Shown: positions 1,670 through 15,330 of the stretch, piece after piece | How the letters are laid out: each line of letters opens with the position of its first letter | Position numbering within the stretch: position 1 is the stretch's first letter | NCBI GenBank assembly: GCA_902826715.1 | Contig: CADEFX010000018.1 | Coordinates: 1-35,553, forward strand | Direction: 5' to 3' | Length of the DNA stretch: 35,553 bases | Source: an uncultured Hyphomicrobiales bacterium | GTDB taxonomy: Bacteria > Pseudomonadota > Alphaproteobacteria > Rhizobiales > Hyphomicrobiaceae | Program-made: the position numbers and the translations under genes | The notes under the pieces: model-generated | What the model saw: the letters and a program-made list of their open reading frames with translations, nothing else | Told to the model about the DNA's origin: nothing | Databases searched by the model: none

Positions 1670-3076
1670 ATGGCGGGCAAGGGCGATTATGTCGTAAAGG
1701 ACATTGGTCTCGCCGAATGGGGCCGCAAGGAAATTGCCATCGCCGAAATCGAGATGCCCGGTCTTATGGCTACCCGGCAGGAGTACGGCCCGAGCCAGCC
1801 TCTGAAGGGCGCCCGCATCGCCGGCTCGCTGCACATGACCATCCAGACGGCCGTACTGATCGAGACGCTGAAGGCGCTTGGCGCCGATATCCGCTGGGTG
1901 TCGTGCAACATCTACTCGACGCAGGATCACGCCGCCGCTGCCATCGCGGAGGCCGGCATCCCCGTTTTCGCCTGGAAGGGCGAAAGTCTAAAAGACTACT
2001 GGGATTATACGCTGAAGCTCTTCGAGTGGTCGGACGGCGGCATGCCGAACATGATCTTGGACGACGGCGGCGATGCAACCCTGTTCGTGCATCTGGGCGT
2101 ACGCGCCGAGGGCGGTGACACCGCGTTCCTCGACAAGGCTGGCTCCGAGGAGGAGGAGATCCTGTTCGCCTTGCTCAAGAGGGCGCTGAAGGAGAAGCCC
2201 AAGGGGTGGTTCGGCCAGCTCGCCACGACGATCAAGGGCGTTTCCGAGGAGACGACGACGGGCGTGCATCGCCTCTATGAGATGCAGAAGCAGGGCAAGC
2301 TGCTGTTCCCGGCCATCAACGTCAACGACAGCGTGACAAAATCGAAGTTCGACAACCTCTACGGCTGCCGCGAGAGCCTCGTCGATGGCATTCGCCGCGG
2401 GACCGACGTCATGATGGCCGGCAAGGTGGCAATGGTCGCGGGCTATGGCGATGTCGGCAAGGGCTCCGCCGCGTCCCTGCGCCAGGCCGGCTGCCGTGTC
2501 ATGGTGTCCGAGGTCGACCCGATCTGCGCCCTGCAGGCTGCCATGGAGGGCTATGAAGTGGTCACCATGGAGGACGCCGCACCGCGCGCCGACATCTTCG
2601 TCACCGCCACCGGTAACAAGGACGTGCTGACGGTCGATCATATGCGCGCCATGAAGGACCGCGCGATCGTCTGCAACATCGGCCACTTCGACAACGAGAT
2701 CCAGGTCGCCGGCCTCAAGAATTTCAAGTGGCACAACGTCAAGCCGCAAGTGGACGAGATCGAGTTCTCCGACGGGAAGCGCATCATTCTTCTGTCGGAA
2801 GGCCGCCTTGTGAACCTCGGCAACGCCATGGGTCACCCCTCGTTCGTTATGTCGGCCTCTTTCACCAATCAGACGCTGGCCCAGATCGAGCTCTGGACCA
2901 ACCCCGGCCAGTACGAGAAGAAGGTCTACACGCTGCCCAAGCACCTGGATGAGAAGGTGGCGCTGCTGCATCTGAAGAAGATCGGCGTCAAGCTTACGCA
3001 GCTGACACCGTCCCAGGCTTCCTACATCGGCGTGTCCGCACAGGGTCCCTATAAGTCGGACCACTATCGCTATTAA
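1670..3076 (+). CDS. ahcY: Adenosylhomocysteinase (S-adenosylhomocysteine hydrolase)
   Basis: A 468-residue NAD-dependent cytosolic enzyme that splits S-adenosylhomocysteine into adenosine and homocysteine, removing the product inhibitor of methyltransferases. Family signatures are all present: [14 protein letters not shown] at about 78-91, DDGGD at 131-135, SEETTTG at 192-198, SVTKSKFDN at 221-229 (Lys224 and Asp228 are the catalytic-type residues), the NAD-binding GYGDVGKGS at 258-266, and the C-terminal KSDHYRY that contributes to the neighbouring subunit's cofactor site. Length fits the bacterial form, which carries an insert compared with the mammalian enzyme. AAGGGA at 1655-1660 precedes the ATG by 9 bases. 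It has its own promoter and a candidate SAH-responsive operator upstream. A 322-bp gap follows, so it is probably not co-transcribed with the kinase. Confidence 0.98.
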
Positions 3077-3398: not shown

Positions 3399-5894
3399 AT
3401 GTGGATTGCTGGCAATTTCGGCAAGGACCCCGGCGCGCGCACGGAGCTCGTTCTGCTCCTCGCCGCGAGTTTGGCCTGTGCCATCGTCCTGACGGTGGCC
3501 GCTGCAGGCCGCCCTGATTCGGTCGGCTCCTTCCGTCTTATCCATATTCTGGCCATCGCCGTGTCGGCCGGCGCCATAGCCGCCGCCACCATGCGCCTGT
3601 GGCGCTCGACCAGCCTTGCGCGGGGTATCGGCCTGCGACGGCAGGACGAAGTGGCTGAGCTGCGCCGCAACCTCGCCGCCGCCGAATCGATGCTCCGGGC
3701 GGAGCCTCAGGTTCTCGTCTATTGGCAGCACGGCGACAGCGTCCGCATCGTCTCGCACACTTTGTCCACCGTTCCGGGCGTGCCCGAGGATCCCCAGCAG
3801 CTTCTGCGCTTCGGTCAATGGCTGGAGCCGTCGGCAGCGCACGAGTTGAAAGAGGGGCTTGATGCGTTGTTTGCCTCGGGCCGCCCCTTCAGCATGCTTT
3901 TGAGGACCAACGCCAGCGGGCATGTCGAGGCTGAGGGGCGGGTCTCCGGCGGCCGCGCTATTCTGCGCTTGCGTGATGTGGCCGGCTATCGCCGCGACCT
4001 CGCGCGCATCATCGACCAGCACCGCCAGCTCGCACGCGACATCAGCCTCGGGCGTGCTCTGTTCAATGCGTTACCGATGCCGGTCTGGCTTCGCGGCGCC
4101 GACGGCCGCATCGAGTGGGTCAACAAGTCCTACGTCCAGGCCGTCGAGGCTGCCGACGAGGAGGAGGTGCGCGAGCGCCAGGTCGAGCTCCTGGAATCGC
4201 GCCAGCGCCAGGAGCTGCGCCGCACCATCGGCCTCGGCGAAACCTTCAAGCAGCGCCTGCCCCTCATTGTCGGCGGCGAACGCAAGTCCCACGATGTCGT
4301 GTCACTGCCCGTGGGTGAAGCAAGCGCCGGCGCTGCCCTCGACGCCGCCGCTCTCGAGGACGCCAAGGGGGAGGTGCAGCGCCAGGTGGCTGCCTTTCAC
4401 CGCACGCTCGATCGCGTGGCCACCGCCGTCGCCATCTTCGACCGCGATCAGCGGCTGACCTTCTTCAACGACGCCTTCCGCACGCTCTGGCAGCTCGATG
4501 CCGATTGGGTGGCGTCTCGCCCCTCACACGGCGAGGTCCTGGATCGCCTGCGCGAATTTTCGCGCCTGCCGCCCGTGGTCAATTATCGCGAATGGAAAAC
4601 GAAAGTGCTCGCCGGGTACAAGACCGATTCCGAGCCTGAGGAATGGTGGCATCTGCCGGATGGTCGGTCTCTGCACGTCATGGCGGAGGAACGCCCCGAC
4701 GGCGGCATCACCTATCTCTATGAGGACGCCACCGAGCAGCTTGCCCTCGAAAGCCGATACAATGCCTTGATCAGCGTGCAGGCCGAGACGTTGGATCACC
4801 TCACTGAGGGCGTTGCGGTGTTCGGCACGGACGGCCGTCTCAAGCTTTTCAACTCGGCCTTCGAGCGTATCTGGAAGCTGTCGCGCCGCGCGCTGCAGGA
4901 GCACCCGCACATCGAGGAAATCGTCCGCCAGTGCCGGGTGCTGCACGACGATCCCCAAGGCTGGGACCGCATCGCGCGCTCAGCCACCGCCATCTCGGAC
5001 CAGCGCCAGCCTGTCGATGGGCAGATGACGCGCGCCGATCAAAGCGTCATCGACTTCTCGGCCCTGCCGCTGCCCGATGGCGGCACGCTCGCCACCTTCG
5101 CGGACGTCACCGACTCCAAGCGCTACGAGCGTGCCCTGATCGAGCGCAACGAAGCCCTCGTGGCCGCCGACAAACTCAAGAGCCAGTTCATCAGCCACGT
5201 GTCCTACGAGCTGCGAACACCGCTCACCAATATCATCGGCTTCAGTGAGCTTCTGGAGAGCCCGCGCACCGGCCCGCTCAACCAGAAGCAGCGGGAGTAT
5301 CTTACCGACGTCTCAGCCTCGTCCAAGACGCTGCTGGCCATCATTGATGACATCCTGGATCTCGCCAACATGGACGCAGGCGCGCTCGAGTTGAAGCTGT
5401 CGCCCGTAAAGGTCGTGCCGATTGTCGACGCGGCCGTTCTCGGCGTCCGCGACCGCGCCGCCCGCGCCAAGATCGCGCTTGAAATCTCCATCGCGGACGA
5501 TGCCGTGGAGTTCATCGCCGACGAGGCCCGCGTGCGCCAGATCCTCTACAACCTTATGTCCAACGCTATCGGCTTCTCCATGCCCGGCGGACGCGTTCAG
5601 CTCATGGGCAAGAACGACGGGGACCATATCGCCTTCACGGTCGTGGACGAGGGCGTCGGCATCCCGAAGGACCAGCAGCGCAGCGTGTTGGAGCGTTTCG
5701 TCTCGCGCAGCCAGGGTTCCAAGCATCGCGGCGCGGGCCTCGGGCTCTCCATCGTGAAGAGTCTCGTCGAGTTGCACGGCGGCGACATTCTCCTGCACAG
5801 CGAGCCCGGCCAGGGCACGTCGGTCACGGTGCGCTTCCCGAAGGGTGGCGTACGTCCCGTCGACACCGCCGATGTCGCACCCAAGCGCGCTTGA
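3399..5894 (+). CDS. divL: DivL-like PAS-domain kinase with Tyr in place of the phospho-acceptor His
   Basis: An 831-residue membrane sensor kinase. Two N-terminal hydrophobic segments (about 15-36 and 46-66) are followed by PAS-like regions at about 220-300, 330-450 and 465-575, a coiled linker, a dimerisation/H-box helix near 590-655 and a C-terminal ATPase domain. ATP-site boxes look intact: N box NLMSNA with Asn718 as its first residue, G1 box DEGVGIP from Asp750, G2 box GAGLGLS from Gly778. In the H-box, SYELRTPLTN has Tyr603 where histidine kinases have His; His600 is three residues earlier. This is the hallmark of DivL, the Caulobacter protein with PAS domains that works through the CckA-CtrA cell-cycle pathway. 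The function here is inferred from that similarity. The ribosome-binding site is weak (AAGAG at 3381-3385), so the start is uncertain. Confidence 0.85.
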   Translation: MWIAGNFGKDPGARTELVLLLAASLACAIVLTVAAAGRPDSVGSFRLIHILAIAVSAGAIAAATMRLWRSTSLARGIGLRRQDEVAELRRNLAAAESMLRAEPQVLVYWQHGDSVRIVSHTLSTVPGVPEDPQQLLRFGQWLEPSAAHELKEGLDALFASGRPFSMLLRTNASGHVEAEGRVSGGRAILRLRDVAGYRRDLARIIDQHRQLARDISLGRALFNALPMPVWLRGADGRIEWVNKSYVQAVEAADEEEVRERQVELLESRQRQELRRTIGLGETFKQRLPLIVGGERKSHDVVSLPVGEASAGAALDAAALEDAKGEVQRQVAAFHRTLDRVATAVAIFDRDQRLTFFNDAFRTLWQLDADWVASRPSHGEVLDRLREFSRLPPVVNYREWKTKVLAGYKTDSEPEEWWHLPDGRSLHVMAEERPDGGITYLYEDATEQLALESRYNALISVQAETLDHLTEGVAVFGTDGRLKLFNSAFERIWKLSRRALQEHPHIEEIVRQCRVLHDDPQGWDRIARSATAISDQRQPVDGQMTRADQSVIDFSALPLPDGGTLATFADVTDSKRYERALIERNEALVAADKLKSQFISHVSYELRTPLTNIIGFSELLESPRTGPLNQKQREYLTDVSASSKTLLAIIDDILDLANMDAGALELKLSPVKVVPIVDAAVLGVRDRAARAKIALEISIADDAVEFIADEARVRQILYNLMSNAIGFSMPGGRVQLMGKNDGDHIAFTVVDEGVGIPKDQQRSVLERFVSRSQGSKHRGAGLGLSIVKSLVELHGGDILLHSEPGQGTSVTVRFPKGGVRPVDTADVAPKRA

Positions 5895-5927: not shown

Positions 5928-7481
5928 ATGACCGCAACGAGACACCTCATCCCCGACCTCGACGAGGCGGGCCTCGCCCTCGTCGCCGAGGTGCTGGCGC
6001 TGTCGGTTCGGCCCGGTGACATTTTGGCGCTTCGGGGCGATCTCGGCGCCGGCAAGACGACGTTCGCGCGCGCCTTCATCCGCGCCGTGCTCGACGATCC
6101 CTCAGCCGAGGTGCCGAGCCCCACCTTCACGCTGCTCCAGACCTACGAGACAAGCCGCTTTTCCATCGCGCATGTCGATCTCTACCGCACCGTGGGCGCT
6201 GCCGAGCTTGAGGAGATCGGCTTCCATGAGGCCGTCGCGACCAACGTGGTGCTGCTCGAATGGCCCGAGCGCGCCGAGCATGCGCTTCCCGCCTCTCGCC
6301 TTGAGATCCAGCTTGAGACGGCTGCCGATCCAAATCGACGCGCTTTGCATCTGATGGGCCTCGGCGATTGGGCGCCACGGCTCGACCGCATCCGCGCGGT
6401 GTATGCGTTTCTGATCGATCACGCGCACCGGACAGGATCAGCCCCCTCGCGTCTGCGCTATCTCCAGGGCGATGCCTCCCCGCGCGCCTACGCGCGTCTG
6501 GACTTCGGCGGCAGCTCGCGCGTGCTGATGAATGCCCCCGCCATGCCCGACGGGCCTCCGGTGCGGGACGGGCAGCCTTACAGTCGCATCGCGCATATCG
6601 CCGAAGCTGTGCGTCCTTTCGTTGCCGTGACACAGGCTCTTGGCCAGCGCGGTCTGGCCGCGCCTCAGGTCCATGCACAGGATCTCGCGCAAGGTCTCGT
6701 CCTGCTCGACGATTGCGGCGATCTCATCCTCGGCCGTGCCATCGCAGCCGGCGTCTCCCAGTCTGATCTCTGGCGCGACGCCGTCGATGCTTTGATCGCG
6801 CTCCGCCGTAAGGGTCCTCCCCCCGCCGCACTTCCGATTGCAGACGATGCGTTTCATGCGCTGCCCGACTTTGATCACCACGCACTCAGCATCGAGGCTG
6901 AGCTGCTCCTCGACTGGTATTGGCCCGCCGCCAAGGGCCAGCCCGTTCCCGCCGATGCGCGCGACGCGTTCATTGCGCTTTGGACGGGTCAGTTCGATTG
7001 GCTGACACGCCTTCCCAAGGGCTGGGTCCTGCGCGACTACCATTCTCCCAATCTGATGTGGATGCCCAAGCGCGACGGCATCGCACGCATCGGCGTCCTC
7101 GATTTTCAGGACGCCATGGCAGGCCCATGGGCCTACGATCTTGTGTCTCTGCTGCAAGATGCCCGGCTCGACGTTCCCGCAGCCCTCGAATCGGACCTGT
7201 TTGCACGGTACTGCGACCGCGTGGCCGCAATAGAGCCGGATTTCGACCGCACCAGCTTCGCCCATGCCTATGCCGCGCTGGGGGCCCAGCGAAACACCAA
7301 GATCCTCGGTATCTTCGCTCGTCTCGCGCGGCGCGACGGCAAACCTGCCTACCTCCAGCATATGCCGCGCATCTGGCGCTACCTCGCGCGCGATCTCGCC
7401 CACCCCTCCCTGGCGCCTCTCCAGGTCTGGTACGACCGCCATTTTCCACAGGCGGATCGCACACGTATCTTGGCGGCGTGA
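5928..7481 (+). CDS. TsaE ATPase fused to an AmgK-like sugar kinase (aminoglycoside-phosphotransferase fold)
   Basis: A 517-residue two-domain protein. Residues 1 to about 155 are TsaE: Walker A GDLGAGKTT at 37-45, SPTFTLLQTYE at 64-74, HVDLYR at 82-87 and EWPE at 111-114. TsaE is the ATPase partner of TsaB/TsaD in making t6A at position 37 of ANN-decoding tRNAs. Residues from about 165 to 517 are a phosphotransferase of the APH/choline-kinase fold: RDYHSPN with catalytic-type Asp370, and DFQD at 392-395 for magnesium. The next gene encodes a MurU-like nucleotidyltransferase, so the C-terminal half is most likely an AmgK-type anomeric kinase for MurNAc/GlcNAc in peptidoglycan recycling. The frame is continuous across the junction, so this is a real fusion. 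It begins 33 bases after divL. Substrate identity is inferred from context. Confidence 0.85.
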   Translation: MTATRHLIPDLDEAGLALVAEVLALSVRPGDILALRGDLGAGKTTFARAFIRAVLDDPSAEVPSPTFTLLQTYETSRFSIAHVDLYRTVGAAELEEIGFHEAVATNVVLLEWPERAEHALPASRLEIQLETAADPNRRALHLMGLGDWAPRLDRIRAVYAFLIDHAHRTGSAPSRLRYLQGDASPRAYARLDFGGSSRVLMNAPAMPDGPPVRDGQPYSRIAHIAEAVRPFVAVTQALGQRGLAAPQVHAQDLAQGLVLLDDCGDLILGRAIAAGVSQSDLWRDAVDALIALRRKGPPPAALPIADDAFHALPDFDHHALSIEAELLLDWYWPAAKGQPVPADARDAFIALWTGQFDWLTRLPKGWVLRDYHSPNLMWMPKRDGIARIGVLDFQDAMAGPWAYDLVSLLQDARLDVPAALESDLFARYCDRVAAIEPDFDRTSFAHAYAALGAQRNTKILGIFARLARRDGKPAYLQHMPRIWRYLARDLAHPSLAPLQVWYDRHFPQADRTRILAA

Positions 7482-7514
7482 TATCATCGCGCATGTACAG
7501 GGGAACTGGGGTCC

Positions 7515-8240
7515 ATGACGTGGTGCCCGCAATCAGCCATGGTCCTTGCCGCCGGTTTCGGCACGCGCATGCGTCCCGCCGCCAATGGCCTGCCCAAGCC
7601 GCTGGTTCCACTCGGCGGACGCGCCCTCATTGACCACGTACTTGACCGCATCGCCGATGCCGGCGTGCCGCGCGCCATCGTCAACGTCCACTACTGTGCC
7701 GACCAGATCGTGTCGCATGTGGCGCGCCGCACGCGTCCCGCCATCGTCATCTCTGACGAATCCGACCTCATTCTCGAGACGGGTGGCGGGGTCCGGAATG
7801 CCCTTTCGCATCTCGGCGATGCCGCCTTCCTCGTGCACAACTCAGACTCGGTCTGGATCGAGCACGCGGCTTCCAATCTCGCCCGCCTGTTCGCGCGCTG
7901 GGACGACAGCACCATGGACTGTCTCATGCTCCTCTCGCCCGTCGAGACCAGCCTCGGATACGCCGGCAAGGGCGACTTCTCGCTCGCCGCCTGCGGAGAG
8001 GTCATCCGTCGTGGCACCGCAAGCCACGCCGACTACGTATTTACTGGTGTATCCCTGATGCACCCGCGTTTGTTTGCCGACAGTCCGTCCGGCGCGTTCT
8101 CGCTCAATCTTTTGTGGGACAGGGCCATCACCTCGCATCGCATCTACGGTCTCACGCTCGAAGGCGTGTGGATGCATGTCGGCGATCCCGTCGCGCTCGA
8201 TCAGGCGGAGAAACGGCTGGCCCGTGCAGTTCATCCTTGA
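7515..8240 (+). CDS. murU: MurU-like sugar-1-phosphate nucleotidyltransferase
   Basis: A 241-residue cytosolic enzyme of the sugar-nucleotidyltransferase family. The N-terminal nucleotide-binding signature is AAGFGTRMRP (about residues 12-21) followed by LPKPLVPLGG, with the usual GRALIDHVLDRI helix after it. ETGGGVRNAL near 95 and the metal/sugar-site HNSDSVW near 115 match the MurU/GlmU-type core. MurU makes UDP-MurNAc from MurNAc-1-phosphate in the recycling route that bypasses MurA, the fosfomycin target. Pairing with the AmgK-like domain just upstream (33-base gap) is the main support for MurU rather than a generic mannose- or glucose-1-phosphate enzyme. GGGG-rich sequence precedes ATG 7515. 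The 3' end overlaps addB by 17 bases, pointing to co-transcription. Confidence 0.8.
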   Translation: MTWCPQSAMVLAAGFGTRMRPAANGLPKPLVPLGGRALIDHVLDRIADAGVPRAIVNVHYCADQIVSHVARRTRPAIVISDESDLILETGGGVRNALSHLGDAAFLVHNSDSVWIEHAASNLARLFARWDDSTMDCLMLLSPVETSLGYAGKGDFSLAACGEVIRRGTASHADYVFTGVSLMHPRLFADSPSGAFSLNLLWDRAITSHRIYGLTLEGVWMHVGDPVALDQAEKRLARAVHP

Positions 8241-11200
8241 TCTCTTCGGCGCGCCTGCAAAGCCTCAGGCGCGCTCCCGGATTTTCACGGTCCCTCCAGG
8301 GCAGCCGTTCCTGACGGCTTTGGCGCAGGCCATCCTGCGCGGCGATCTGCCGAAACCCGGCGGCAAGGCGCCGGATCCGCTCGATCTGCCGCAATACACC
8401 ATCCTGCTGCCCACGCGCCGCGCCGCTCGCGCGCTGCAGGACGCGTTTCTCAAGGCCGGCGGCGGCAAGGCCATGCTGCTGCCGCGCATCACGCCGATTT
8501 CCGAAGGCCAGGAAGACCTCGGCCTCCTGGAAAGCGCGATCAGTCCGCTGGATCTTGGCGACGAGGCCGACACGCTTCTGCCCGCCGTCGCTGAGCTCGA
8601 GCGCCGCCTCGTGCTGACGCGCCTCATCATGGCCTGGGCCGCCAGGCAGACCGCCGAAGGGCACACTGTCGCCGCACCCACTCCCGCGCAGGCCGTGCGC
8701 CTCGCTACAGAACTCGCGCGCCTCATGGACGCCGTTGAAACGGAAAACGTCGATTTCTCCGGTCTGCGCGATCTGGTGCCGGACACGTTCTCCGAGCATT
8801 GGCAGAAGACGCTCGAGTTTTTGACCGTCGCCACTGAGACGTGGCCAGCATATTTAGAAAGTAGTGGGCTTGCCTCGCCTATGCGCCGGCGCAATCAGCT
8901 TGTGCGCTTGGAAGCCGCGCGTCTTGCAGCCAACCCGCCGAAGCATCCCGTCATCGTCGCCGGTGTCACCGGCTCCGTGCCCGCCACGGCTGAGCTGATG
9001 CGCACGGTCGCGGCCGCGCCGAACGGCGCCATCGTCCTGCCCGCGCTCGATCCTGGTCTCGATAACGAGACATGGGCCGCGCTCGCCGGCGATCCCGGCC
9101 ACCCGCAATCGGGCTTTCGCACCTTGCTCGATCAGCTTCAGGTCGAGCGCCGTCACGTCGCCATGCTGCCCGGCAGTGTCGTCGGTCCCGTGCCATCGAC
9201 GCGCAGCGCCATCGTCGCCGAGGCATTGCGCCCGGCATCGTCGATGGGGCACTGGCGCACCTTTGCCCAAAGCTCCGACAAGGCCGCACTGTCCGCCGCG
9301 CTCGCGGATGTCGAGCTGATCGAGGCGTCCGGTCCGCAGGAGGAATCCGAGGCCGTCGCCCTCATTCTCCGGGAGGCACTTGAGACGCCCGGCCGAACGG
9401 CCGCGCTGGTCTCGCCCGACCGCTTGCTCGCGCGCCGCGTGGCCGTCCGCCTGCAAAGCTGGGGCATCCGCGTGGACGATTCCGCCGGTCGCCCGTTCGC
9501 CAAGACCGTGCCCGGTACCTTCCTCGATCTCGTCGCCGACGCTGCCACCAGCCATTTCCGGCCGGCCGAGCTGATGGCGTTACTCAAGCACCCGCTGACG
9601 CGGCTCGGCCTGCCGCCCGGACAGCTCCGCCGCACGGCGCGCATGCTGGAGCTCGCGGCCTTCCGCACGCTCTATCTCGATCGCGGCCTCGCCGGCGTCG
9701 AGGCGGCGCTCGAACGCGCCGCACGTGGGGTTGCCGCCGGTACGCGGCGCCAGCGCGCGGTCCGCCGTTTGTGGGACGCCGATTGGAACGCCGCGCGCGA
9801 TCTCGTGCAGCGCCTGACAGCGGCCATGTCACCTTTGACCGAGGTATTCTCGGCCCAAGGACAGTTGCCGCTAGGCACGCTCGCTGCCGCTCACATTGCC
9901 GCCGCCGAGGCGCTGGCGCAGCCGCCAGATGACGACACAGAAGGTTCACCGCTCTGGCAGGGTGAGGCGGGCGAAGCCGCAGCGCGTCTGTTCGCGGGGC
10001 TGCTCGATCAGGAGGCGCTCGCGCCGCATATCGCGCCGGCCGACTACGCTGAATTCTACCGCAGCCTCATCGCCGGCGAGAGCGTGCGGCCGCGCGTGCC
10101 GGTGCATCCGCGTCTCTTCATCTGGGGGCCGTTTGAGGCGCGCCTGCAGCAGACCGACGTGATGGTTCTCGGCTCGCTTAACGAAGGCACGTGGCCCGCA
10201 CCCGTCGATCCCGGCGCCTGGCTCAACCGTCCCATGCGCGAGGCCATGGGCCTGCCTGCTCCCGAGGTCGAGATCGGCCGCGCCGCGCACGACTTCACGA
10301 CCTTTTTCGGCGCCGACCGTGTCGTGCTGACGCGCGCACGCAAGATGGATGGTGCCCCCACCGTTCCCTCACGCTGGCTCATGCGGCTGAAGGCGCTGCT
10401 TGAAGGCGCCGGCATGGCCAATGCTCTCGCCGTTCGCGCGCCGTGGCTCGCGTGGGCCCGTGCCCGCAACGATGTCGTGCGGCGCACCGCCCTGCGCGCA
10501 CCCGAGCCGCGGCCGCCCGTCGCGCTGCGTCCGCGCGGCGCCAGTGTCTCCGACGTCGAGACATGGGTCCGCAATCCCTACGAAATTTTTGCAAAGCGTG
10601 TTCTGTCCCTCGAACAATTGCCCGAGCTCGGCGCTGAGCCGGGGCCGCAGGAAAAGGGGCAGATCCTGCACGAGGCGCTGTCGCGCTTCGCTGGCCGCTT
10701 TCCGCAGCGGCTGCCGCCCGATGTCCGCGGTTCGTTTCTCGAGATCGCGGCCGAAGTGGTGTGCGATCTGTCAGGCCATCCGCGAGTCGCGGCGTTCTGG
10801 ATACCGCGGTTCGACCGTTTTGCGGATTGGTTCGCGCAGACGGAAGCCGATCGCCGCGATGGCGTGACGCGCCTCGTGGCGGAGGTCGCCGGTGCCCAGG
10901 TCCTGAACGGTCCGGGGGGGCCGTTCACGCTGCGCGCACGCGCCGATCGCCTTGATGTGACGCGGGACGGTGTCGTCATCACCGACTACAAGACCGGCGC
11001 GTTGCCGAGCGACACCGCCGTTCTGTCGGGATATGCCCCGCAATTGCCGCTTGAGGCGGCCATCGTCGCAGCCGGCGGATTCGATCATGTCCCTGAGACC
11101 GCCGTCGCTTCCTTGCGCTACATCCGCGCCACGGGTGCCGAGCCGCCAGGGGCGGAACGCATTGTCAAAACGGATGACGTGACGGCGCTTGCCGCCGGCT

Positions 11201-11373
11201 CGCTGGCCGGTCTGCAGCGCTTGATCGCCCGCTTCGACGACGCCGCGACGCCCTATCGCGCCGTGCGCCGCGTGCGCTTCAATTACGACTACGACGACTA
11301 CGCCCATCTCGCGCGCGTGGCCGAATGGACCAGCGACAGCACCGAGGAGGACGACCCATGGACGTCCCCCTGA
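8224..11373 (+). CDS. addB: AddB, double-strand break repair nuclease/helicase-like subunit
   Basis: Subunit of the AddAB helicase-nuclease, the RecBCD counterpart that resects double-strand breaks for RecA loading. The open frame extends upstream inside murU, but the family N-terminus (RIFTVPPGQPFL at about 19-30) places the start at GTG 8224, giving 1049 residues, the usual size of the alphaproteobacterial type. No ATG lies between. The N-terminal part is the inactivated UvrD-like region. The C-terminal PD-(D/E)XK nuclease shows ILHEAL (His816, Glu817) and ITDYKTG with Asp921 and Lys923. A GGAG lies about a dozen bases before the GTG. It overlaps murU by 17 bases and addA by 16, an arrangement typical of translational coupling. 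Confidence 0.93.
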   Translation: MQFILDLFGAPAKPQARSRIFTVPPGQPFLTALAQAILRGDLPKPGGKAPDPLDLPQYTILLPTRRAARALQDAFLKAGGGKAMLLPRITPISEGQEDLGLLESAISPLDLGDEADTLLPAVAELERRLVLTRLIMAWAARQTAEGHTVAAPTPAQAVRLATELARLMDAVETENVDFSGLRDLVPDTFSEHWQKTLEFLTVATETWPAYLESSGLASPMRRRNQLVRLEAARLAANPPKHPVIVAGVTGSVPATAELMRTVAAAPNGAIVLPALDPGLDNETWAALAGDPGHPQSGFRTLLDQLQVERRHVAMLPGSVVGPVPSTRSAIVAEALRPASSMGHWRTFAQSSDKAALSAALADVELIEASGPQEESEAVALILREALETPGRTAALVSPDRLLARRVAVRLQSWGIRVDDSAGRPFAKTVPGTFLDLVADAATSHFRPAELMALLKHPLTRLGLPPGQLRRTARMLELAAFRTLYLDRGLAGVEAALERAARGVAAGTRRQRAVRRLWDADWNAARDLVQRLTAAMSPLTEVFSAQGQLPLGTLAAAHIAAAEALAQPPDDDTEGSPLWQGEAGEAAARLFAGLLDQEALAPHIAPADYAEFYRSLIAGESVRPRVPVHPRLFIWGPFEARLQQTDVMVLGSLNEGTWPAPVDPGAWLNRPMREAMGLPAPEVEIGRAAHDFTTFFGADRVVLTRARKMDGAPTVPSRWLMRLKALLEGAGMANALAVRAPWLAWARARNDVVRRTALRAPEPRPPVALRPRGASVSDVETWVRNPYEIFAKRVLSLEQLPELGAEPGPQEKGQILHEALSRFAGRFPQRLPPDVRGSFLEIAAEVVCDLSGHPRVAAFWIPRFDRFADWFAQTEADRRDGVTRLVAEVAGAQVLNGPGGPFTLRARADRLDVTRDGVVITDYKTGALPSDTAVLSGYAPQLPLEAAIVAAGGFDHVPETAVASLRYIRATGAEPPGAERIVKTDDVTALAAGSLAGLQRLIARFDDAATPYRAVRRVRFNYDYDDYAHLARVAEWTSDSTEEDDPWTSP

Positions 11374-14300
11374 CGCCGCAAAGCCTCGAGACAGAACGCA
11401 AGCGCACGTCGCAAATGCAGCGCGACGCCGCCGATCCCGCCGTCTCCGCCTGGGTATCGGCCAACGCCGGCACCGGCAAGACGCACGTGCTGACCATGCG
11501 CGTTCTGCGTCTCCTCATCGAAGGCACGTCGCCCGATCGCATTTTGTGCCTCACCTACACCAAGGCGGCCGCCGCCGAGATGTCTCAACGCGTGTTCCAG
11601 CGCCTGTCCGGCTGGGTGACGATTGCCGACGCCGCGCTCGATGCCGCGCTGTCGCAGTTGCTCGGCCGCGCGCCTGTCGATGCGGAACGCCAGCGAGCGC
11701 GGCAGCTCTTCGCCCAGGCCATCGAGACGCCCGGCGGCCTCAAGGTCCAGACCATCCACGCCTTCTGCGAACGCCTGCTGCAACGCTTCCCGCTGGAGGC
11801 GGGCATTCCTCCGCACTTCGCCATTCTCGATGAGCAAGCCTGCCGCGAGCTTCAGCGCGAAGCCATCGACGATCTCCTCACCCAAGCCACTCGCAACCGC
11901 ACGTCCGAGATCGGCCGGGCACTCAATAAGATCGTCGCTTACGCTGCCGACGACCGTTTCGATGAGCTTCTGCGCGATGCCCTGATCCGGCGCGACTGGC
12001 TGGAGGACGCAAGCCGCTTTGAGGCCGGCGACGGCCCGATATTCTCCGGCGTCGAGACGCTTTACCGCCGCGCCTTCGGCGTGAGCCCGGACGTGTCGCT
12101 TGAGGATATCGAGACGCGCATCGTCCAGCTTTTGTCCGAGGAGCACTGGCGCACGGCCCGCGGCGTGCTTGCGGCGGGTTCAACAAGGGATTTGGAAGGC
12201 GCCGACCGTGCCGCGGCCGTCCTCGACGCGCGGACACCTCAACAGCGCGCCGACGCGGTCTGCAACTTTTTCATCACGTCGGAGAACGGTCCGCGCAAGT
12301 CTCTCATGACTAAGGGGATCACCGCCGAGCGCGGTGATGTTCTCGCTTACCTCTCGCGTGCTCAGGATGCGGTGATCCCACTCAGCGCCGAGCGCGGGCA
12401 TCTGCGGGTCATCGAGGCGACGATGGCGCTGCTGCGCCTCGGCGACGCTGTCATGCAGCGCTACACCAACTTGAAGGCGCGTCGCGCTGCGCTCGATTTC
12501 GACGATCTCATCCGCAAGACAGCCAATCTGCTCGGCGATCACGCCAGTGCCGAGTGGGTGCTTTTCAAGCTCGACGGCGGCCTCGACCATATCCTCGTCG
12601 ATGAGGCGCAGGACACCAGTCCCGTCCAGTGGGACGTCATCGAGGCGCTCGCCAACGAGTTCTTCGCAGGGGCCGGCGCGCGCGAGGGCGCCGTGCGCAC
12701 GCTGTTCGCCGTCGGTGACGAGAAACAGTCGATTTACGGCTTCCAGGGCGCGCGGCCCGAGCTGTTTGCCCGCCTGGGCCGCACCTTTGCATCTGCCGCC
12801 GGAAATGCCGGTCTCGCGTGGCGTCATGTGCCGCTCACGTTGTCCTTCCGTTCGGTTGCTCCCGTTCTCGCCGCCGTCGATGCCGTCTTTGCCGACCGCA
12901 ATCGCACGCGCGGTATCACGGCGGACGACGTGAATGTGAAGCACGTTGCCATGCGCCACGGTCACGCCGGTCTGGTCGAGATCTGGGAGACGGAAAAAAG
13001 CGACGACATGCAGCCCGCCGACGTCTGGACGCCGCTCGACGACAAGCCGTCGGGCTCTCCCGTCGTGCGCTTGGCCCGGCGCATTGCCGACACGATCGAG
13101 CATTGGCTTGATACGGACGAGGCTCTCGTTTCCGCCAACCGGCCGATCCGCCCCAGCGATATCCTGATCCTCGTGCGCAAGCGCCGGCCGTTCGCCGAGG
13201 CCATGGTCGCCGAGTTGAAGGCACGCGGCATTCCCGTCGCCGGCGCCGACCGCATCCGGCTCGCCGACCAGATCGCGACGCAGGATCTCATGGCGGTGGG
13301 CGATTTCGTCTTGCTGCCCGAGGACGACCTCGTTCTCGCGACCCTGCTCAAGAGTCCTTTCTTTGATCTCGACGACGATGATCTCATCGCCATCGCGCCC
13401 AACCGAAAGGGCTCCCTGTGGTCGGCAATGCTGGCCGCTGCTGAAACGCAGCCGCGCTTCCGCGATGCCGCGGACACTCTCAAGCGTTGGCGCGCCCGGG
13501 CGGATTACGCCCCGCCCTTCGAGTTCTATGCCGAGCTTCTGAATTCGGAGCACGGCCGCATGCGATTGCTGGAACGCCTTGGCGCTGAGGCTGCCGAGCC
13601 CATCGACGAATTTCTCGATCTGGCCCTCAAATTCGATGATGGCGCACCGCCTTCGCTGCAAGGCTTTCTCGATTGGCTACGTCGGAGCGAGGTCGTTATC
13701 AAGCGCGACATGGAGCACGGACGCGGCGAGGTTCGCGTCATGACCGTGCACGGCGCCAAAGGACTGGAAGCGCCCATCGTTTTTCTCCCCGACACGTGCA
13801 CCACGCGATCCGGTGAGCGTCCCGGCGGGCTTGTGGCCTTGCCTGATGTCGAGCGTCCGGCGCGGATGGCGGAGCCGTTTTGCTGGCCGGTGAAGGGCAC
13901 AGCACGCGTCTCCGGCGTCCGCAACGCCCGGCATGCGGCCGGGCAGCGCGAGACGGAGGAGCGCAACCGCTTGCTCTACGTCGCTCTGACGCGCGCACGC
14001 GATCGCCTTTATGTCGCTGGGTTCGAAGGAGCCAACGGCCGCGCTGAGGGATGCTGGTATGATCTCATAGCTGACGCCTTGGCGCCTGTGACGGTAGAGG
14101 CGCGCGACCGCCAGGGCCTTCCCGTCCGGCGGCTCGCCGCCCCGCAGGATGCACCGCACGAATCCACGCAGGACGCTGTCTCCGGGGATCCCGATCCGCA
14201 GCCGCTGCCCAAGTGGGCACATAAGCCGGCGCGGCCCGAGCGCGACCTCGCCATTCCATTCGCGCCCTCGCGTCTCGCACCGCTCGAAACCGATGCCGAG

Positions 14301-14948
14301 GGCGATCCCGTGGATACGCCCGGCAACCCGCGCCAGGCTTCCGAGCCGCGTGCGCCGGGCCCGGTCGCCATGGCCGACGGCCACCGCTTTGCGCGCGGGC
14401 TCCTGACGCACGGCCTGCTGCAGTATCTGCCGGCACTCGACCGCCGCGGTTGGAAGGGTGCCGCTGAGCGCTTCGTCGCCATACGCGGCGCCGGCCTGCC
14501 GCAACGTACCCGCGAAAGCATCGTCACAGAGACGCTCGCCGTCCTGACCGATCCGGCGTTCGCCGCGCTGTTCGGTTCCGAAAGCCGTGCCGAGGTGCCG
14601 ATCGTGGCCGAGATCGCCTGCCCCGGCGAAAAGGATCGCAAGTTGCGGCTCACAGGGCAGATCGATCGTCTTGTTCGCGTCGGCAAGGAGATCCTGATCG
14701 TCGACTACAAGACGAACCGGCCGCCGCCGCGCCGCGTCCAGGACGTCTCGGAGGCCTATACACTGCAATTGGCGGCCTACCGCCTCGCCGTGCGGCAGGC
14801 CTTCGCCGGCGCGCCCGTGCGCGCGGCCCTTCTATGGACGGATGGCCCTCGCATCATGGAAATCCCGGCCGATGTGCTCGATAACGCAGAAAAACGTGTG
14901 TTCACGGTTGATCGAGCCAGCCTTGACGCTAGGGGTGGCGATACCTAA
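11358..14948 (+). CDS. addA: AddA, UvrD-family helicase/nuclease
   Basis: The ATP-driven helicase-nuclease subunit of AddAB, 1196 residues from ATG 11358. GAGGAGG at 11344-11350 lies 7 bases before this ATG and favours it over the in-frame ATG at 11325. Helicase motifs in order: I SANAGTGKT with Lys41; Ia CLTYTKAAAAEM; II VDEAQD with Asp415-Glu416; III GDEKQSIYGFQGA; IV LTLSFRS; V TVHGAKGLEAPIV; VI LLYVALTRARDR. A C-terminal RecB-type nuclease carries GQIDRL and VDYKTN with Asp1116 and Lys1118. Partner of AddB in the same operon. The recombination hotspot (Chi) used by this organism cannot be read from the gene. Confidence 0.96.
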   Translation: MDVPLTPQSLETERKRTSQMQRDAADPAVSAWVSANAGTGKTHVLTMRVLRLLIEGTSPDRILCLTYTKAAAAEMSQRVFQRLSGWVTIADAALDAALSQLLGRAPVDAERQRARQLFAQAIETPGGLKVQTIHAFCERLLQRFPLEAGIPPHFAILDEQACRELQREAIDDLLTQATRNRTSEIGRALNKIVAYAADDRFDELLRDALIRRDWLEDASRFEAGDGPIFSGVETLYRRAFGVSPDVSLEDIETRIVQLLSEEHWRTARGVLAAGSTRDLEGADRAAAVLDARTPQQRADAVCNFFITSENGPRKSLMTKGITAERGDVLAYLSRAQDAVIPLSAERGHLRVIEATMALLRLGDAVMQRYTNLKARRAALDFDDLIRKTANLLGDHASAEWVLFKLDGGLDHILVDEAQDTSPVQWDVIEALANEFFAGAGAREGAVRTLFAVGDEKQSIYGFQGARPELFARLGRTFASAAGNAGLAWRHVPLTLSFRSVAPVLAAVDAVFADRNRTRGITADDVNVKHVAMRHGHAGLVEIWETEKSDDMQPADVWTPLDDKPSGSPVVRLARRIADTIEHWLDTDEALVSANRPIRPSDILILVRKRRPFAEAMVAELKARGIPVAGADRIRLADQIATQDLMAVGDFVLLPEDDLVLATLLKSPFFDLDDDDLIAIAPNRKGSLWSAMLAAAETQPRFRDAADTLKRWRARADYAPPFEFYAELLNSEHGRMRLLERLGAEAAEPIDEFLDLALKFDDGAPPSLQGFLDWLRRSEVVIKRDMEHGRGEVRVMTVHGAKGLEAPIVFLPDTCTTRSGERPGGLVALPDVERPARMAEPFCWPVKGTARVSGVRNARHAAGQRETEERNRLLYVALTRARDRLYVAGFEGANGRAEGCWYDLIADALAPVTVEARDRQGLPVRRLAAPQDAPHESTQDAVSGDPDPQPLPKWAHKPARPERDLAIPFAPSRLAPLETDAEGDPVDTPGNPRQASEPRAPGPVAMADGHRFARGLLTHGLLQYLPALDRRGWKGAAERFVAIRGAGLPQRTRESIVTETLAVLTDPAFAALFGSESRAEVPIVAEIACPGEKDRKLRLTGQIDRLVRVGKEILIVDYKTNRPPPRRVQDVSEAYTLQLAAYRLAVRQAFAGAPVRAALLWTDGPRIMEIPADVLDNAEKRVFTVDRASLDARGGDT

Positions 14949-15006: not shown

Positions 15007-15330
15007 ATGACAGCGTTCGTTACTGACGCAAGCTTCGAAGCTGAGGTGATCAAGTCCGCTGAGCCGGTGGTGGTGGATTTCTTCGCCGAGTGGTGTGGCC
15101 CCTGCAAGGCAATGGCACCGGCGCTGGAGCAGGTCTCCCAGGAGATGGCTGGCAGGGTGAAGGTCGTTAAAATCGACGTCGACCAGAACCCCGAGATCAC
15201 CCAGAAATACCGCATCCAGGCGATGCCGACGCTAATGGTCTTCAAGGACGGCAAGGTCGCCGCCCAGCAGGTCGGCGCGCTTGTCCAGAAGAAGAAGCTG
15301 GAAGACTGGATCAAGTCCTCGATCCAATAG
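15007..15330 (+). CDS. trxA: Thioredoxin
   Basis: A 107-residue cytosolic protein-disulphide reductase. The redox motif WCGPCK has Cys30 and Cys33, Phe-Phe-Ala-Glu precedes it, and the cis-proline loop AMPTL has Pro74. Length and sequence are those of classical TrxA. The open frame runs further upstream, overlapping the end of addA, but AGGAG at 14992-14996 lies 10 bases before ATG 15007 and the protein begins exactly where thioredoxins do. It sits 58 bases after addA, so it may be read from the operon or from its own promoter. A terminator-like hairpin follows at 15357-15382. Confidence 0.97.
   Translation: MTAFVTDASFEAEVIKSAEPVVVDFFAEWCGPCKAMAPALEQVSQEMAGRVKVVKIDVDQNPEITQKYRIQAMPTLMVFKDGKVAAQQVGALVQKKKLEDWIKSSIQ

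Follow-up and report, generated by a model that had tools for sequence, protein, structure and literature searches.

We report here that TsaE, the ATPase of tRNA t6A synthesis, and a putative AmgK-type kinase are encoded by one gene in an uncultured bacterium of the order Hyphomicrobiales (Rhizobiales), just upstream of a gene for a MurU-like nucleotidyltransferase. The best explanation, to which we give a probability of about 0.87, is that two operon neighbours merged into a bifunctional protein whose halves work independently, the kinase half serving together with MurU in the recycling of MurNAc. The window, i.e., the whole stretch of DNA that was analysed, is 35,553 nucleotides long, and the features discussed below are located in Table 1.

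Table 1. Positions of the fusion gene, its two domains and the neighbouring genes within the window.
Feature	Positions	Strand	Basis
ahcY, adenosylhomocysteinase, conserved upstream neighbour	1670..3076	+	NCBIfam; locus comparison
PAS sensor histidine kinase, conserved upstream neighbour	3399..5894	+	Domain match; locus comparison
tsaE-amgK fusion gene, 517 aa	5928..7481	+	Open-frame reading of the window; Pfam, NCBIfam; single match in 109/121 genomes of the order
TsaE domain, aa 17-137	5976..6338	+	Pfam; alignment of 24 fusions; the genome's only TsaE
AmgK-type (APH-fold) kinase domain, aa 167-511	6426..7460	+	NCBIfam; residues invariant in 70 relatives
murU-like uridylyltransferase, 241 aa	7515..8240	+	NCBIfam; structure ranking; motifs
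addB, start overlapping the murU end	8224..11373	+	TIGR02786, 969 bits
addA	11325..14948	+	TIGR02784, 1210 bits
Thioredoxin (trx), final gene of the conserved block	15007..15330	+	WCGPC motif; start codon chosen by eye

The original prediction, made from the sequence alone, held that one open frame joins a complete TsaE to a kinase of the aminoglycoside phosphotransferase (APH) fold, and this is fully borne out. Pfam places TsaE in the N-terminal part of the single frame (E 1.4e-31; 109.6 bits for a cut-off of 26.6) and APH at aa 177-433 (E 6.5e-18), while the NCBIfam TsaE model TIGR00150 exceeds its own cut-off (90.7 vs 60.1 bits). The TsaE half has its Walker A motif around G37-G42-K43, together with D84 and E111-W112, unchanged across 24 aligned fusions, and its closest solved chains are TsaE proteins of several bacteria. 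A genome-wide search gave one TsaE match only, which is the fused copy, and also found TsaB with a score above cut-off. For the C-terminal part, the top NCBIfam match is AmgK (NF045698, 261 bits, 1.4e-77), below the 500-bit equivalog cut-off of that model. Its catalytic residues D370 and N375 and the metal-site residues D392 and D395 are invariant in all of the 70 relatives compared (44 fused, 26 split). The closest solved chain is PDB 3csv (E 1.2e-47), a stand-alone, unfused protein of 333 aa from an alphaproteobacterium, deposited under the generic name 'aminoglycoside phosphotransferase'. Since full-length fused homologues with 31-56% identity occur across the order, the fusion is neither a chance event nor an assembly error.

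The adjoining gene, which starts 33 bp past the stop codon of the fusion, had been called MurU-like, and our data agree; the stretch 5928-8240 picked out from the sequence consists of exactly these two genes. Its top NCBIfam match is MurU (NF045697, 273.5 bits, 1.2e-81), again below the equivalog cut-off (370 bits), and its product carries the nucleotide loop LAAGFGTRMRP, a PKP motif and the metal-site NSD. The solved chains closest to it in sequence are those of Pseudomonas MurU, and with a model built from five sequences (pLDDT 85) ranks 1-5 of a Foldseek search against the PDB were all MurU chains of P. putida and P. aeruginosa. Moreover, MurU was found downstream of the fusion in 34 of 34 loci examined, usually within 60 bp. 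The second metal-site Asp (W-x-D-x-G-T in Pseudomonas MurU) is a His here (GVWMHVGDP, window 8163-8189); in our alignment this position is commonly His in the order, Thr in Sinorhizobium and Asp in Sphingomonas. Because it varies among alphaproteobacterial MurU proteins, this Asp is a weak test of membership. The metal site is variable in an enzyme that is conserved otherwise.

As both the AmgK and the MurU scores stay below the NCBIfam equivalog cut-offs, the family score alone does not settle the substrate. The name AmgK-type given to the kinase half thus reflects a sub-cut-off score, and we infer its probable function from the genomic context and from the genetics of relatives. A genome search revealed AnmK and a single GH3 hydrolase as the NagZ candidate, as well as two Gph-like phosphatases as MupP candidates (102.6 bits for the copy on contig 64 vs 83.1 bits for the other, both far below the MupP cut-off). 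When MurQ was searched in this genome, none was found, just a weak fragment match at 6e-4. This setting resembles the AmgK-MurU pathway of Pseudomonas putida and P. aeruginosa, which operates with AnmK and MupP: the same two enzymes are adjacent in the same gene order, the kinase catalytic residues are the same, AnmK is present and MurQ is absent. It differs from Pseudomonas in the N-terminal TsaE domain of AmgK, in the His at the MurU metal site and in a gene block that includes the PAS histidine kinase, addBA and trx.

The genetics come from two alphaproteobacteria. In Agrobacterium tumefaciens, a member of the same order, Tn-seq under fosfomycin named AnmK, MupP, AmgK (Atu0026) and MurU (Atu0025), and both AmgK and MurU were required (PMC9790009). 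The two locus tags are adjacent. That paper leaves TsaE and a fusion unmentioned; the present work adds a description of the architecture and follows it across the order. Judging by the fused genes of Rhizobium, Sinorhizobium and Pararhizobium, Atu0026 is very probably the same fused gene. In Caulobacter crescentus, where AmgK (CC_3535) is followed by MurU (CC_3536), MurNAc recycling was shown genetically, the deletion of amgK increasing both MurNAc and fosfomycin sensitivity; AmgK is described there alone, and TsaE is unmentioned (PMC13046382, PMC11980594). Our literature search found no paper bringing together TsaE and AmgK, or YjeE and aminoglycoside phosphotransferase, or using a bifunctional product name; most subscription papers were outside its coverage, and the fusion may be described elsewhere.

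In a rival reading, the kinase and the nucleotidyltransferase would act on another sugar, for instance mannose phosphate for LPS or exopolysaccharide. The MurU-like protein does distantly resemble GMPP, HddC and RmlA, and BAB1_2103, the gene in the MurU position in Brucella, was read as a mannose-1-phosphate guanylyltransferase (PMC9491525). This reading is nonetheless highly improbable, given that the MurU models and structures are clearly ahead (273 bits vs 59 for the mannose-1-phosphate guanylyltransferase model) and that the genetics of A. tumefaciens and Caulobacter (PMC9790009, PMC13046382, PMC11980594), the association with AnmK and the alternation with MurQ all argue against it. The AmgK/MurU recycling route put forward in the original prediction is instead supported by the family matches, the nearest structures, the invariant residues, the AnmK and NagZ candidates, the lack of MurQ, the joint loss of AmgK and MurU described below and the A. 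tumefaciens Tn-seq data (PMC9790009). The recycling interpretation is very likely right, and it is largely known in relatives.

The genes around the fusion are shared with Brucella abortus, where the same run, ahcY - histidine kinase - TsaE gene - nucleotidyltransferase - addB - addA - trx, was reported as part of the 16-gene bvrR/bvrS operon, the gene in the fused position being annotated as TsaE alone (PMC9491525). The window differs from that operon in being without bvrRS, hprK and pts ahead of ahcY. The position of trx after addA is seen in Sinorhizobium as well as in Brucella. The PAS histidine kinase matches in position the gene called divL in Brucella and retains the H-box His (SHVSYELRTPL). 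In Sinorhizobium meliloti (L120 8932-10446) and Rhizobium sp. (L122 5923-7437), a fused gene of 504 aa bears the name TsaE alone, and MurU is given the unspecific label of nucleotidyltransferase; in both, ahcY is preceded by genes for a sensor kinase, an HPr-kinase-like protein and the PTS.

The distribution of the fusion was followed in a sample of 121 genomes of Hyphomicrobiales/Rhizobiales. All 121 gave a match, which ran as a single match across both domains in 109; TsaE only was found in 6, and in the other 6 the locus was broken into two matches or cut by contig ends. The fusion is retained over some 50 families, with Pararhizobium, Methyloligella, Notoacmeibacter, Sinorhizobium meliloti and Rhizobium among its carriers, and this order-wide presence indicates that it is no artefact of the 412-contig draft assembly.

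We also compared the positions of TsaE and AmgK over 289 genomes of Alphaproteobacteria. Among the class-wide matches listed, 81 genomes had both, AmgK being directly downstream of TsaE and in the same orientation in 69, within one match in 9 and apart in 3. The gap between the two domain matches had a median of 78 bp in the 69 adjacent cases (among the matches listed, with strong hits favoured). It should be noted that a single match across both domains can conceal a stop, as G103, G190 and G029 proved split on inspection. In 42 split loci the tsaE and kinase frames abut, overlap or sit a few bases apart. In Sphingomonas, the histidine kinase, tsaE, phosphotransferase and nucleotidyltransferase genes overlap by a few bases (4 bp each for tsaE/kinase/nucleotidyltransferase), which is likely the ancestral state. 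Since the genes of other Alphaproteobacteria are usually adjacent, separate and often overlapping, the fusion appears as a merger of operon neighbours.

In a tree of 70 kinase domains, the fusions of the order form one clade (SH-aLRT 97), pointing to a single origin of the fusion within the order. At least 4 changes of state are needed over the class, and fused genes also exist beyond the order, in families f17, f38, f55 and f79, apparently by a few parallel fusions; as the well-supported branches force only 1 change, the number of parallel events is not firm. A second, unfused AmgK-like gene was seen in addition to the fused one in some genomes (G305:C5:251788-252561, G332:C3:204027-204824 and G053:C79:14185-15159).

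A single frame may in principle give rise to two proteins, either because translation also starts inside it or because the product is cleaved by proteolysis, so that the cell would contain little fused protein. The frame does hold an in-frame ATG at aa 143, close to the domain border, but this codon is without a preceding ribosome-binding site and the Met is not conserved across the order. For these two reasons the internal start was dropped, and production as two proteins is extremely improbable.

The natural losses of AmgK are informative about which partner it follows. The 6 genomes of the order without an AmgK domain have all kept TsaE, and in 5 of them tsaE is still directly behind the histidine kinase. 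In two (G379, G338) amgK and murU are both gone and addB comes directly after tsaE, whereas in G343 amgK is gone and murU remains. By Fisher tests that treat genomes as independent and ignore shared ancestry, so that their p-values are optimistic, MurU is absent in 4 of the 6 AmgK-less genomes vs 3 of the 115 others (6e-5), and among the genomes with AnmK a near-full-length MurQ-like gene is present in 3/3 without AmgK vs 14/108 with it (0.003). The three MurU absences among the 115 genomes are at loci that meet a contig end, and 2 AmgK-less genomes retain a divergent MurU. Only near-full-length MurQ matches were counted; the weak, short matches found in most genomes, inside frames of ~610 aa, were excluded and are probably the SIS domain of GlmS. 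AmgK seems to be replaced by MurQ in AmgK-less genomes: those with AnmK and a MurQ-like gene are G293, G343 and G295, which appear to have exchanged the MurU route for the etherase route, and in the remaining 3 AnmK is missing too. AnmK was not detected in 7 AmgK-bearing genomes either. Overall, this pattern indicates that the presence of AmgK goes with that of MurU and of the anhydro-MurNAc pathway, to which TsaE is indifferent.

These losses bear on the further proposal of the original prediction, namely that the fusion physically couples recycling to tRNA modification, possibly through shared sensing of the ATP state. If the fusion had such a regulatory purpose, or one of channelling, the kinase half, MurNAc or the ATP state would tune TsaE, wall turnover would be linked to translation, t6A synthesis would respond to wall recycling (or the reverse), and the TsaE-AmgK join would be a selected, order-wide link. 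The maintenance of the fusion in so many families and its presence in a few other alphaproteobacterial lineages are what one would expect of such a purpose. On the other hand, most other orders have separate genes in the same block, in several lineages within the order AmgK is missing, mostly together with MurU, and TsaE stands alone in the same place, and AmgK tracks MurU rather than TsaE. A model of the complete fusion protein built on five sequences is too poor (pLDDT 61) to judge or reveal an interface. As the partners are split in other orders and lost independently within this one, the coupling is unsupported; we hold it to be possible but disfavoured, and on balance improbable.

We thus return to the merger of two independent functions, which may have proceeded as follows. 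The starting point would have been an old operon of the Alphaproteobacteria, in which two adjacent genes, probably coupled in translation, became one through a probably near-neutral join of overlapping genes that was fixed once in the order. The N-terminal half is the sole TsaE of the cell, which would drive t6A synthesis on tRNA with TsaB/TsaD. The AmgK half, preceded in the pathway by AnmK and a MupP-like phosphatase, would phosphorylate MurNAc, and probably GlcNAc too, at carbon 1, and MurU would convert MurNAc-1-phosphate into UDP-MurNAc, so that recycled muramic acid could rejoin wall synthesis past MurA. The domains, the catalytic residues, the gene block, the distribution and the co-loss were observed directly, and from there the substrate, the flux through this route, the way in which the join arose and the independence of the two halves, which is most likely, are inferred.

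New here are the architecture of the fusion and how far it extends, along with its single origin in the order and the natural deletions. Annotation can be corrected order-wide, since the records of Rhizobium, Sinorhizobium and Brucella say TsaE only and present MurU as a generic or mannose enzyme, which conceals a fosfomycin-relevant wall-recycling route. Moreover, a full 'amgK' knock-out in a fusion carrier deletes the only TsaE, so that the first ~150 codons have to be left intact when mutants are made. In several Rhizobiales, this wall-recycling route lies beside the ChvG/ChvI (BvrS/BvrR) envelope-stress genes.
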